Source: Rhodoglobus vestalii (GTDB lineage: Bacteria; Actinomycetota; Actinomycetes; Actinomycetales; Microbacteriaceae). Taken from it: DNA of 64,000 bases. Both the position numbers and the translations under genes were made by a program. Positions within the stretch are counted from its first letter, which is position 1. The number at the start of each line of letters is the position of its first letter. The notes below the pieces were generated by a model. The model was not told the origin of the DNA. It ran no database searches and was given only the letters and a program-made list of their open reading frames with translations. This document shows positions 35,311-39,471 of the stretch, in pieces. The DNA is taken from the NCBI RefSeq assembly GCF_006788895.1, contig NZ_VFRA01000001.1, forward strand, positions 868,001 to 932,000. The letters run 5' to 3'.

Positions 35311-35790
35311 CTACAACGTCTTCTCAAAACACACCCCGAAAGGGATCGCAGCGTAGTGGCCGAACGCATCAATTCGCCGGTAGCCAAGACTCTCATAGAG
35401 CGCCATTGCGGGCACCTGCACATGGCCGGTTTGAAGTACCAAAGAGTGTGCCTCAGCCTCGCGGGCAACACCCTCAAGCTCGTTCATGAGGAGGCGCGCG
35501 GCGCCCTTGCCCCGGTGACGCGAATCGACGAACACCTTCTTGACCTCGAATGACGCGCCAAAGGGCCGAAGAGCCGCATGCCCGATCACCACATCGGCAT
35601 CGAGCACCAACACCGTGTGGCTGACATCGGAGGGCGAGACCGTCAACGCAGCACTGACTGCGTTGCGGCCCGCCTCATCGAGTTCGGCCTGACGATCTGC
35701 ATACATTGCGGTCGTCTCGACCTCCATCAGTTCACGCTGCTGGACCGCCCGTGGATCTAGCCATCCAACCCACTCGACGGTCAGGCTCAC
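35311..35790 (-). CDS. GNAT family N-acetyltransferase
   Basis: A 159-residue acetyltransferase. The acetyl-CoA motif A is VKKVFVDSRHRGKGAARLLMNELE (about residues 83-106, with the R/Q-x-x-G-x-G/A signature as RHRGKGAA), followed by LVLQTGHVQVPAMALYESLGYRRI (motif B). The acceptor is unknown. Its GTG start overlaps the nrdB stop by one base (TAGTG), so it is translated with ribonucleotide reductase and probably shares NrdR control, an unusual link. Confidence 0.85.
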   Translation of the reverse strand: MSLTVEWVGWLDPRAVQQRELMEVETTAMYADRQAELDEAGRNAVSAALTVSPSDVSHTVLVLDADVVIGHAALRPFGASFEVKKVFVDSRHRGKGAARLLMNELEGVAREAEAHSLVLQTGHVQVPAMALYESLGYRRIDAFGHYAAIPFGVCFEKTL

Positions 35791-36797
35791 TAAACCTTGA
35801 CCTTGGTGGTTGCTGACGCGTTCGCCTCGTACGAGGTGTTGGTTGATTCGAAGAAGTTCACCAGCTCAAGAGTGTCGTTGGCGGTCGCCATCCACTTGGC
35901 TGGGTTCGTGACCTTGTAGTGGGCCTCAAATCCGAGCTCCTCTAGGCGGCGGTCAGCCAGGTACTTGACGTACTGGTTGATGTAGTTGGCGTTGAGTCCG
36001 AGGATGCCGCCGGGGAGCAGGTCGTGGTTGTAGGCCTCTTCCATTTCGACAGCATCCAAAATCATCTGGCGAATTTCGTCAGCGAACTCTTCCGTCTGGA
36101 TCTCAGGGTTCTCTTCGAGCACGGTGAGAATCAGGTTGATGCCGAATTTGAGGTGCAGGCTCTCATCACGAACAACCCAGTCCATGAGCGAACCGAAGTT
36201 GCGCAGCAGGTTGCGCTGGCGGAACGACAAAGCGACCATGAACCCTGAGTAGAACCAAATGCCCTCAAGAATCACGTTGTAGGCAACAAGGTTACGGATG
36301 AAGTCTTGCTTTCCCTGAATCGTGTCGATGTCGAGAGTCTGCTCCGTCATGCGCCGGATGTACTTCAACTCGAACTCCTCTTTGCGAGCCATCGACGGCA
36401 CATCAACGTGAGAGTTGTAGGCCGCTTCACGATCGATGGGGAAGGTTTCGAGTACATACTCGAAGCTCATGCAGTGGTTTGCTTCTTCCCACATCTGCTT
36501 GGCGAGATACAGCGAACACTCTGCCGCAGAGACGTAGGGGTACACACCAAAGGCGAGTGCCTTGTTGACGAGCAACTCGTTGGGGTTGAAGTAGCTCATG
36601 AGGAAGGTCACCGCGTGACGTTCCTCATCAGTCATCTTCTTGAAATCGGCGATGTCTTCGCCCAGCTGAATCTCGTTCGGGAACCAGGTGTTAGCGACGG
36701 CCTGGTCGTAGAGGTCCATTGCCCACTGGTACTTGATCGGCTTCAGCAGAAGGCCATCTTGCAGGCCTGTTCCTAAAATTCCCATTCTGTTGGTCAC
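35790..36797 (-). CDS. nrdB: Ribonucleotide reductase small subunit, class Ic-type (Phe at the radical site)
   Basis: This 335-residue subunit builds the metal cofactor that starts nucleotide reduction. Metal ligands are Glu74 (NPNELLV), Glu105 and His108 (EEANHCMSF), Glu178 (ILEG), Glu212 and His215 (DESLH). Where class Ia/Ib proteins have the radical Tyr, four residues after His108, this one has Phe112. Glu74 replaces the usual Asp. From memory the spacing equals Chlamydia trachomatis NrdB (E89, E120, H123, F127, E193, E227, H230), the Mn/Fe class Ic prototype. It follows nrdA and the detached tail ORF on the same strand and is followed by a coupled GNAT gene. Confidence 0.93.
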   Translation of the reverse strand: MTNRMGILGTGLQDGLLLKPIKYQWAMDLYDQAVANTWFPNEIQLGEDIADFKKMTDEERHAVTFLMSYFNPNELLVNKALAFGVYPYVSAAECSLYLAKQMWEEANHCMSFEYVLETFPIDREAAYNSHVDVPSMARKEEFELKYIRRMTEQTLDIDTIQGKQDFIRNLVAYNVILEGIWFYSGFMVALSFRQRNLLRNFGSLMDWVVRDESLHLKFGINLILTVLEENPEIQTEEFADEIRQMILDAVEMEEAYNHDLLPGGILGLNANYINQYVKYLADRRLEELGFEAHYKVTNPAKWMATANDTLELVNFFESTNTSYEANASATTKVKV

Positions 36798-36840: not shown

Positions 36841-36921
36841 TTACTGGCAGCTGTCGCACTGCAGGTCGTTCATCGGGTCAGACGGAACGAAGTAGTCGTC
36901 GATGGCGTTCTCGCGATTCAT
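36841..36921 (-). CDS. 26-residue peptide with CxxC: detached redox tail of NrdA
   Basis: The reading frame starts with an ATG that overlaps the nrdA stop by one base (TAATG) and ends before nrdB. The peptide is acidic, contains DDYFVPSDPMNDL and ends in CDSCQ (Cys22 and Cys25). Class I large subunits normally carry such a cysteine pair at their own C-terminus, where it re-reduces the active-site disulfide; NrdA here has none. Either the tail is made as a separate coupled peptide acting in trans, or a -1 frameshift fuses it to NrdA, or an indel split the gene. Only weak purine-rich sequence (AGAAAG) precedes the ATG. Confidence 0.7.
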   Translation of the reverse strand: MNRENAIDDYFVPSDPMNDLQCDSCQ

Positions 36922-39362
36922 TACGAGTCTGCTTTCTTGGAGAATCCGCCGAAGCCCTTGCGAGCAGGAGCGCTTCCCGCCGACGACGATCCAGCGCCCG
37001 CTGCCGCAGACTTGGTTGAAGAAATTTCTTCGGACTTGTTGACCTTCACGGTGGATTGCTCCGCTTGGTGGCGAGGCTTCATGTGCAGGTAGTAGGTGGT
37101 CTTGACTCCACGCGACCAGGCATCGAAGTAGATGTCCATCATGTCGCCCAGGTCACGAGTCTCGAGGTACATGTTGCGGCTGATGGCCTGATCGATCCAC
37201 TTCTGGGCACGAGCCGCAACCTCAAGGAAGGAGTACGGCGACAGCTGGAAACTTGTCTTGAATACAGCTTTGATGTCGTCGGGGATGCCGTCGATGTGTT
37301 GGATGTCGCCCTGGCTGCGCAGGATCACTTCACGGTTCTTCTCCCACAGGTCATGCTCCTGAAGTGTCTCAACGAGGTTGCGGTTCACTTCAAGAAATTT
37401 ACCGTTGGAGGTTGAGCGGCTAAAGATCTGCGAGAACTGTGGGTCAAGACCGGGCGTGGTGCCGGCAACCAGACCAATGGATGCGGTGGGCGCAATCGCC
37501 ATGAGCGTCGCGTTTCGCATTCCCCCCTTGACCTTCTCGCGCATGGCATCCCAGTCGAGCCGCGTCTTACGGTTGACTTTGATTTCCATGCCACGATCTT
37601 CTTCGGTGAGCGCAATGGAGTCGAGCGGCACGAGGCCCTTCGACCAGCCGCTGCCTTCGAAGTTGGTGTAGGCACCGCGCTCTTTGGCGAGCTCAGTGCT
37701 GGCGTCGATGGCGGCGTAGGAGACATGTTCCATAATTTCGTCGATGAGGTCGTACGCCTCTTCGCTCTCGTAGCTGTAGCCGAGCTTCTCGATGATGTCG
37801 GTGAAGCCCATTACTCCGAGGCCAACCGCACGGTTCTGCTCGTTGGAGAAGTCTGCTTCTTTCACGCTGGAGCGGGTGATGTCGATGAGGTTGTCGAGTT
37901 GACGTACGGCCAGTCGGGCGCTCTCGGCGATCTTTGCGAAGTCGACTCCACCTTCGGGCAGGAGGTGGCGTGACAGGTTGATCGATGCGAGGTTGCAGAC
38001 GGAGACGTTGTCTTCGTCTTGCGGGAGCGTGATCTCGGTGCACAGGTTGGAGAGGTGGATTGTTCCCGTGTTGTTGTTGAGGGCACGGTTGTTGATCGTG
38101 TCTTTCCAGGTCAGCCAAGGGTGGCTGGAGGTCTGCAGCGAGATGAGGATTGACTTGAACTGCTCGCGCGCACCGATTTTCTTGAACATGTGCATTTCGC
38201 CGGCTTCGGCCATGGCGACATATTCGTTGTAGCGCGCAGAGAACGCCTTGCCGTAGAGCTCGTTGAGGTCAGTGACCTCAAGCGGGTCGAAGAGGTACCA
38301 CGAGTCATCGTTTTGCACGCGCTTCATGAACTCATCGCTGATCCACACCGCCGTGTTGGCGGTGCGGGTGCGGCGGTAGGGGTCACCCGAGTTGCTGCGA
38401 AGTTCAAGGAACTCGGGGAAGTCCATGTGCCAGTTCTCCATGTAGAAGCAGAGGGCACCGAACTTCTTGCCACCCCGACTAACCGCACGCAGGATCGAGT
38501 CGATTGTGTGCATGAACGGGATGGGGCCGGTGGAGGTGGTGTTGTTGGAGCGGATCGGCGAACCCTGCGCACGCAGCTTGGTGACCGAGAGGCCAATTCC
38601 GCCGGTGCCCTTGGTAAGCCACATGACATCGCGAGTGGTCTTAGCGATGTGCTCCATGTCGTCTTGCATTTCCATGACGAAGCAGTTGGCAAGCTGCGGG
38701 TAGATGGTTCCCGCATTAACAAGGGTGGATCCGGCAGCCAAGTATTCGAGGCTGGACATCTTTTGGTAGAACTTGAGCGCCGCCTCGTTGGGGTTCGCTT
38801 CGTTGAGCGAGAGGCCCATCGCGATGCGCATCCAGAAGTACTGGGGAACCTCAAGAGCGTCGCCGTTGCGACCCTTGATGCCATAGCGGTTGTTGAGGGT
38901 AACAACACCGATGTACTTGAGAAGTTCGTCGTGCGCAGGCTCAAGGTGCTCGGAAAGAGCTTCAAGGTCGAACATCTCAACGAGGCGGGGGTCAAGCAGT
39001 CCCTCTTCAACGCCGCGTATGACATTGGGGCCAAAGTGCTCTTTGTGCAGCTTCTTGAGATCGGCAGCATCGGTGTAGTCACCGAGCACGCGCTTGTAGA
39101 TGGTCTTCAGCAGCAGTCGTGCAGCGACGGTGTCGAACGCGGGGTCATCTTTGACGTTTTGGAGGGCAACCTGAATGACTGCCTCGTCGAGCTGCTGGGT
39201 CGTGATGCCATCAAACAGCGTCAGTTCAAGCTCGGACGCGATCTGGGTAACCCACGTGATGTTCTCGTCGAGACCAACGCTGGCATCTTCAATTGCGAGG
39301 TTGATCTTGTTCGCATCGTACGGCTCCCGCGTGCCGTTGCGCTTGACGACTGTGATTGACAC
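36921..39362 (-). CDS. nrdA: Ribonucleotide reductase large subunit, class I, lacking its own C-terminal cysteine pair
   Basis: This 813-residue subunit reduces ribonucleoside diphosphates to deoxy forms. An N-terminal ATP-cone (VVKRNGTREPYDANKINLAI) gives overall activity control. Active-site residues are Cys227 (LANCFVM), Asn439/Cys441/Glu443 (SNLCTEI) and Cys456 (VCNLASINL); the radical-path tyrosines are Tyr757-Tyr758 (TTYYLHMKP). After these, about 55 residues of Ala/Ser/Gly-rich linker end in GFGGFSKKADS with no cysteine. The usual redox pair lies in the overlapping small frame. The GTG start has GAGGGAG upstream. Two NrdR boxes lie in the promoter region. Confidence 0.94.
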   Translation of the reverse strand: MSITVVKRNGTREPYDANKINLAIEDASVGLDENITWVTQIASELELTLFDGITTQQLDEAVIQVALQNVKDDPAFDTVAARLLLKTIYKRVLGDYTDAADLKKLHKEHFGPNVIRGVEEGLLDPRLVEMFDLEALSEHLEPAHDELLKYIGVVTLNNRYGIKGRNGDALEVPQYFWMRIAMGLSLNEANPNEAALKFYQKMSSLEYLAAGSTLVNAGTIYPQLANCFVMEMQDDMEHIAKTTRDVMWLTKGTGGIGLSVTKLRAQGSPIRSNNTTSTGPIPFMHTIDSILRAVSRGGKKFGALCFYMENWHMDFPEFLELRSNSGDPYRRTRTANTAVWISDEFMKRVQNDDSWYLFDPLEVTDLNELYGKAFSARYNEYVAMAEAGEMHMFKKIGAREQFKSILISLQTSSHPWLTWKDTINNRALNNNTGTIHLSNLCTEITLPQDEDNVSVCNLASINLSRHLLPEGGVDFAKIAESARLAVRQLDNLIDITRSSVKEADFSNEQNRAVGLGVMGFTDIIEKLGYSYESEEAYDLIDEIMEHVSYAAIDASTELAKERGAYTNFEGSGWSKGLVPLDSIALTEEDRGMEIKVNRKTRLDWDAMREKVKGGMRNATLMAIAPTASIGLVAGTTPGLDPQFSQIFSRSTSNGKFLEVNRNLVETLQEHDLWEKNREVILRSQGDIQHIDGIPDDIKAVFKTSFQLSPYSFLEVAARAQKWIDQAISRNMYLETRDLGDMMDIYFDAWSRGVKTTYYLHMKPRHQAEQSTVKVNKSEEISSTKSAAAGAGSSSAGSAPARKGFGGFSKKADS

Positions 39363-39423: not shown

Positions 39424-39439
39424 CCACTATATATCGTGG
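39424..39439. promoter_or_regulatory. NrdR box 1 (proximal) upstream of nrdA
   Basis: CCACTATATATCGTGG is a near-perfect 16-base palindrome fitting the NrdR consensus (acaCwAtATaTwGtgt). On the nrdA strand TATATA inside it can act as a -10 with TTGGTT 17 bases upstream as -35, so NrdR-dATP/ATP binding would block the promoter. Confidence 0.8.
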
Positions 39440-39455: not shown

Positions 39456-39471
39456 ACCCTAGATGTAGTGG
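39456..39471. promoter_or_regulatory. NrdR box 2 (distal) upstream of nrdA
   Basis: ACCCTAGATGTAGTGG matches box 1 at 11 of 16 positions and lies exactly 32 bases from it, about three DNA turns, the spacing known for paired NrdR boxes. It is weaker than box 1 but the phase supports a real pair. Confidence 0.65.

Follow-up and report, generated by a model that had tools for sequence, protein, structure and literature searches.

The window analysed here, a stretch of 64,000 nucleotides from the single-contig 2.84 Mb genome of Rhodoglobus vestalii, carries on its minus strand a locus for class I ribonucleotide reductase (RNR), in which nrdA is followed by a short ORF and then by nrdB. The features are listed in window coordinates:

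36921..39362, minus strand: nrdA, class I RNR catalytic subunit without a C-terminal Cys pair, 813 aa from GTG
36841..36921, minus strand: separate redox-tail ORF of 26 codons, MNRENAIDDYFVPSDPMNDLQCDSCQ, assigned from the reading of the window, purifying selection and its separateness in relatives
36919..36923, minus strand: TAATG stop/start overlap of nrdA and the tail ORF, with one base in common (from the sequence)
36924..37080, minus strand: C-terminal region of NrdA with an Ala/Ser linker that ends PARKGFGGFSKKADS, cysteine-free (from the sequence)
35790..36785, minus strand: nrdB, encoding the radical-generating subunit, which is class Ic-like with Phe at the position of the radical Tyr; MGILGTG taken as the start
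39424..39439, minus strand: NrdR-type box 2 upstream of nrdA, CCACGATATATAGTGG, assigned by resemblance to consensus
39456..39471, minus strand: NrdR-type box 1, CCACTACATCTAGGGT, also upstream of nrdA and separated by 32 bp from box 2

The initial annotation had reported that NrdA stops short of its cysteine pair and that a 26-codon ORF in the -1 frame, opening within TAATG, encodes that pair, and translation of the window confirms both. NrdA ends ...APARKGFGGFSKKADS* with no cysteine beyond YYLHMKPR, and the last A of its stop codon TAA (36923-36921) is also the A of the tail ATG, which sets the tail in the -1 (+2) frame. Such a C-terminal pair normally relays the electrons of redoxins to the active site of RNR, as described in PMC5704485 and PMC4520616. 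In class I the redox arm is generally placed on the catalytic chain itself, and a CXXC at the C-terminus is counted in 1737 of 2022 class I RNR sequences in the relevant part of PMC9531940. The tail peptide itself matched no Pfam or NCBIfam family.

Upstream of its truncated end the catalytic part of the window NrdA looks intact. Its domains are the ATP-cone (PF03477), all-alpha (PF00317) and barrel (PF02867) families of Pfam, and it scores over the PRK06539 cut-off. When it is aligned to structure 5im3, the segments LANCFV, SNLCTEITL and SVCNLAS, which we take to be the three active-site cysteine motifs, and KTTYYL, presumably the radical-path tyrosine pair, fall opposite their counterparts. 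The protein thus has the domains and active-site residues of class I catalytic subunits and lacks the C-terminal cysteine pair on the same chain. A genome search with PF02867, informative for classes I and II only, matched this nrdA alone, so that no other catalytic subunit of class I or II was seen. The nearest structure to the window NrdB is that of the Chlamydia R2 protein 1syy, which we assume to represent class Ic; because Phe replaces the radical Tyr at its usual position and 1syy is the closest structure, the NrdB cofactor probably differs from a simple Fe2-Tyr centre.

Comparison of the 26 copies of the tail adjoining nrdA in the genus (25 of them distinct) indicates that its terminal 17 codons are evolving as protein: in the tail frame pS was 0.524 and pN 0.061, a ratio of 0.12, and over the same codons the other two frames gave pN/pS of 3.0 and 2.1. 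The window copy reads DPMND (36844-36879) at a site where the other 25 have DPMDD or DPMDE.

The arrangement was then followed through three sets of loci, from the genus, from the family and from named relatives, which overlap in part. This NrdA is encoded in 26 of 27 genomes of the genus, the exception (G007) having only a 30% relative. At each of these 26 loci, the window among them, an ORF of its own encodes the tail, 25 times in the -1 frame and once in the +1 frame. The junctions vary: TAATG, TGATG, TAATTATG, TGATCATG, TGACCATG, TAGTG and TGAAATG all occur. Across the family set (52 loci, L030-L081) a script recognized a separate adjacent tail at 49, with 37 in frame +2, five in frame +1 and seven in frame 0 after the stop; reading by hand located the tail ORF at L076, where the NrdA stop is displaced, and at L075 and L079 no tail lies beside nrdA. 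The named set draws on Salinibacterium, Clavibacter, Leifsonia, Cryobacterium, Naasia and Microcella together with metagenome-assembled genomes of broad label, one of them labelled Cellulomonadaceae; we take its members to be Microbacteriaceae. The closest of them to the window NrdA, at 96%, is marine actinobacterium PHSC20C1 (Salinibacterium). Of the 80 loci in this set, 76 have nrdA and a neighbouring tail as separate ORFs (frame +2 at 65, frame 0 at seven, frame +1 at four) and three are split with no tail within 700 nt of nrdA; the last ends at a contig edge, and no fused tail was found among the 79 that could be read. The first ATG or GTG lies at -1 to +2 of the nrdA stop in 57 of the 76, a spacing that is, by sequence, the geometry of termination-reinitiation, and some tails begin as far as about 60 nt beyond the stop.

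At loci from other families the tail forms part of NrdA. A CxxC tail is fused in frame at all 21 of the order-level loci that the script could read (of 29) and at all 15 readable class-level loci (of 17, the other two ending at contig edges). The motif CPxDP[MQ]....C..CQ is present in 31 of these 36 fused tails (for example ..VDGVACPVDPMERLQCESCQ), and the remaining five, from NrdA proteins about 40% identical, end ..DPECEACQ. By sequence match the separate tail is homologous to this fused C-terminus of other families, and the simplest inference would be that the tail was split off in an ancestor of Microbacteriaceae. The initial annotation had named a tail fused in the same frame in close relatives as the sign of an indel; within the family this sign is absent, with none of the 79 readable named loci fused, and fusion was seen in other families alone.

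Further copies of the tail stand apart from nrdA. Genomes were searched with a DNA pattern for which a reversed-pattern control gave zero matches in every genome listed. The Rhodoglobus vestalii genome contains, besides the window tail, four others: at C1:18068, at C1:1011818 (about 1 kb from murB), at C1:1246828, and a divergent copy about 540 nt from the last. At least two matches occur in each of the 26 genus genomes that encode this NrdA, and none in G007. Five genomes have a distant copy only: of the two from the family set, one (G079) has its single match on another contig, in the other (G041, 0.93 Mb) it lies 35 kb off between murB and a maoC-like gene, and each of three more has exactly one match elsewhere. 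These stand-alone genes read like MDNDNDTVGGYAVPVDPMDLLQCDSCQ, and a Shine-Dalgarno-like site precedes all 23 of the solo tails inspected, by a lenient test that allowed free choice among nearby start codons. One genome (G067) has six matches, one adjoining nrdA and five on three other contigs.

Tail and tail-less NrdA occur together. Within a set of 120 family genomes a tail match was obtained in 55 of 55 with this NrdA versus one of 65 without it (Fisher 9e-34, a value that ignores relatedness); the lone NrdA-negative genome with tail matches, G138, is 77% complete. None of 11 fused-tail genomes tested held a second copy, their sole match being the fused tail. The motif was also seen at the ends of two longer ORFs, one resembling SSB by eye (L161 7326-7370; the other at L159 6734-6778). 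A third such ORF (L163 541-585) appeared NrdH-like by eye, and a fusion to NrdH-redoxin was considered for it and dropped when no Pfam match was found.

Many of these genes have similar upstream elements. The two boxes preceding the window nrdA are termed NrdR-type here because they resemble the NrdR-box consensus, and at this gene and at many solo tails the box starts are 32-33 bp apart. NrdR boxes are described, in the pertinent part of PMC9110341, as tandem palindromes lying upstream about three helix turns apart, to which the spacing of 32-33 bp comes close. A tandem-box pattern matched 40 times (37 distinct) in 1.84 Mb of cellular strand sequence, 21 times upstream of nrdA, 19 times upstream of a solo tail and nowhere else, in loci that had been chosen around nrdA and tails and from which the pattern itself was drawn. 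The pair was detected upstream of nrdA at 35 of the 78 named loci with upstream DNA (missed at 43), with no match anywhere else in the 1.27 Mb covered by all 80 named loci; among family nrdA loci at 19 of 30 (missed at 11); at 17 of 23 inspected solo tails (missed at L114, L115, L146 and L399-L401, with single-box matches present at L115); and at one of 46 outgroup loci with a fused or unread tail. The pattern is specific, yet many loci are missed. In 1.99 Mb of strand sequence around viral and plasmid tails it had no match. Where the pair is present, NrdR may bind at nrdA and solo tail alike. In three genomes with no tail beside nrdA the solo tails (L399, L400 and L401) have no tandem-box match, so their control may differ from that of the boxed copies.

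The tail is also dispersed among mobile elements. Using a 27-residue query, tblastn retrieved it from six phage records with E-values of 0.01 to 0.2, namely Clavibacter phages CN1A and CMP1 (two records each), Pontimonas phage phiPsal1 and Pseudanabaena phage Pan2, and from 19 plasmid records (best E 4e-5) of Clavibacter (15), Leifsonia (3) and Gryllotalpicola (1). Five of the phage and five of the plasmid sites are unannotated. The tail is thereby seen in named phages, where it would be a candidate auxiliary metabolic gene of putative host origin. The 56 annotated features of phiPsal1 include no RNR. Pan2 (ON968453), recorded from a cyanobacterium, outside the expected host range, has a related small CDS (L402 2502-2585) whose frame reads MDDFDTIDGFACPNDPADLVSCESCQ from the first Met after a stop. 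One Leifsonia plasmid has a 33-residue product annotated as 'ribonucleotide-diphosphate reductase subunit beta'. On plasmid pCS1 of Clavibacter sepedonicus an unannotated tail ORF (L404 2525-2569) lies some 30 nt upstream of a gene for single-stranded DNA-binding protein, and one chromosomal copy (L156) adjoins a phage integrase.

An exact scan of IMG/VR located the tail on at least 120 stretches. Among the matches listed, a start codon lies 20-36 codons ahead of the stop in 119, and 84 span 60 codons or fewer from stop to stop; a few are in longer ORFs. When the cysteine codons were left free, both cysteines were present in 120 of the 120 matches listed; 32 stretches were new and most overlap the first set. 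Neighbouring genes recur: among the listed matches with an upstream neighbour within 150 nt (61), 35 have a member of one cluster whose representative matches terminase large subunit, and among the 68 with a downstream neighbour, 33 have a member of one cluster whose representative matches portal protein. A protein scan of the same database yielded four relatives of NrdA. Three of them, tail-less and 73-74% identical, are encoded on contigs that also have a solo tail, in every case upstream of nrdA; the fourth relative (39%) is accompanied by no tail match. Between the solo tail and nrdA on two viral contigs are ORFs of about 320 residues with an intein-like start (L437 4012-4977; L438 4029-4976), the former with a LAGLIDADG_3 match just over cut-off, and the nrdA ORF of L439 runs to 1120 codons, suggesting an intein.

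From these sequence comparisons we conclude that the arrangement is real and conserved, a class I RNR whose redox tail is encoded separately and also has mobile copies, and very probably one in which the tail acts in trans as a free peptide supplied by host genes and mobile elements alike. The split, the translational coupling and the trans action proposed in the initial annotation are supported to that extent. In Microbacteriaceae that rely on this RNR, which is class Ic-like, the arm that swings at the C-terminus of NrdA would have become a separate peptide, mostly of 22-30 residues. One copy would be made by translation of the nrdA message, with termination-reinitiation at its stop as the simplest route; the second has a gene to itself, which often shows a tandem pair of NrdR-type boxes and a Shine-Dalgarno-like site. 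The CxxC of the peptide would be reduced by thioredoxin or NrdH-type proteins, and the reduced peptide would then dock at the active site of NrdA, reduce its disulfide at each turnover and depart. An arm in the form of a peptide would require docking at the active-site cleft and a sufficient amount of peptide; reinitiation would give some with every nrdA transcript, and the stand-alone gene would add more, often under look-alike control. Copies on phages, plasmids and integrative elements would most simply raise dNTP supply during replication of the element itself, a benefit to be expected where the host RNR is limited by free tail; they might also have an inhibitory role.

Several other readings were weighed. 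The separate peptides could serve as regulators or inhibitors of RNR or of some other thiol protein, with NrdA reduced directly by a redoxin. Phage, plasmid and duplicate host copies would suit such a modulator, and a C-terminal RNR domain supplied in trans (UN-24) gives an incompatibility-like phenotype in yeast in the experiments of PMC3618301; but we regard this as improbable, given that both cysteines are kept in every listed IMG/VR match although their codons were left free, that every NrdA-positive genome examined with the pattern has at least one tail match, and that the 11 tested fused-tail genomes have no separate copy. Less probable still is programmed frameshifting or readthrough that joins the tail to NrdA so that the working enzyme is full length. 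The prevalence of the -1 frame near the stop (65 of 76 named loci) and the frequent openness of that frame upstream in genus loci would agree with it. However, tails are found in each of the three frames, the start of some is tens of nucleotides past the stop, some genomes have their tail only tens of kilobases away or on another contig, viral tails sit upstream of nrdA, and the clustering of start codons about the stop is what reinitiation would produce; the frameshift product that the initial annotation had left as an option is therefore disfavoured as a general mechanism. Covalent joining of the peptide to NrdA after translation, by ligation or trans-splicing, is very unlikely: the intein-like ORFs between tail and nrdA in L437 and L438, with the LAGLIDADG_3 match, point that way, but they occur in few viral loci, and at most host loci the stop of nrdA overlaps the start of the tail or almost reaches it, leaving no room for a splicing element. 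A sequencing error or recent indel, as which the window alone could be read, is refuted by the same arrangement in dozens of genomes and several genera with differing junctions, and by the solo copies.

If the tail is a free peptide acting in trans, a diffusible and exchangeable unit of about 25 residues would constitute the redox arm of an essential enzyme, encoded by at least two host genes and partly under NrdR control. We think it reasonably likely, on the evidence of the sequences, that this is so and that the phage, plasmid and integrative copies rank with the smallest of auxiliary metabolic genes, a single ORF of 25 codons sufficing in place of a whole RNR to boost or steer dNTP synthesis in the host. 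The prediction follows that phages of Microbacteriaceae, a family of soil, plant and water bacteria, influence dNTP supply through a gene of about 25 codons that annotation often misses. An arm carried on a free peptide would be experimentally separable, so that concentration, affinity, redox partner and active-site exchange could be titrated with synthetic peptides, and the system would show clearly how fission of a gene can yield a functional part no larger than a peptide.

Among known systems, NrdH-redoxin, glutaredoxin and thioredoxin are, as the tail would be, small CxxC carriers that keep RNR reduced; they act upstream of the tail, whereas the window peptide corresponds to the tail itself. 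These redoxins are folded proteins of about 75-110 residues. The UN-24 C-terminal domain of Neurospora is likewise a piece of a class I large subunit, and complexes with yeast Rnr1p in trans, but what the relevant part of PMC3618301 describes is experimental expression of a 135-residue incompatibility domain. Phages also provide class I subunits made from two coding regions, as in the split nrdA of Aeromonas phage Aeh1 and Listeria phages A511 and P100; there, in the portion of PMC3653736 concerned, the breaks are attributed to inteins, introns or homing endonucleases, and the pieces do not amount to a conserved separate redox tail with dispersed copies. The view of the initial annotation that such a split had not been described holds for class I, for which we found no published description of a split tail in the titles and abstract openings of the open-licence papers searched; for RNR as a whole it needs qualification, since the class II pair NrdJa/NrdJb of Pseudomonas aeruginosa is known (PMC4520616, in part). 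An analysis of 2022 considered, in the passage concerned (PMC9669993), that split domains are perhaps distinct to class II; the present system, if the reading is true, would extend them to class I. According to the pertinent sections of PMC4520616, NrdJa/NrdJb resembles the tail in placing the redox cysteines on a separate polypeptide of one operon, and NrdJb mediates thiol-disulfide exchange and is required in vivo. The two systems differ in that NrdJa/NrdJb is an AdoCbl-dependent class II enzyme, and that of Microbacteriaceae a class I NrdA with adjacent NrdB; in that NrdJb is a 229-residue partner of 1:1 stoichiometry, and the tail a peptide of about 25 residues; and in that the tail, unlike NrdJb as there described, has several dispersed genes, partly with NrdR-type boxes, and copies on mobile elements.
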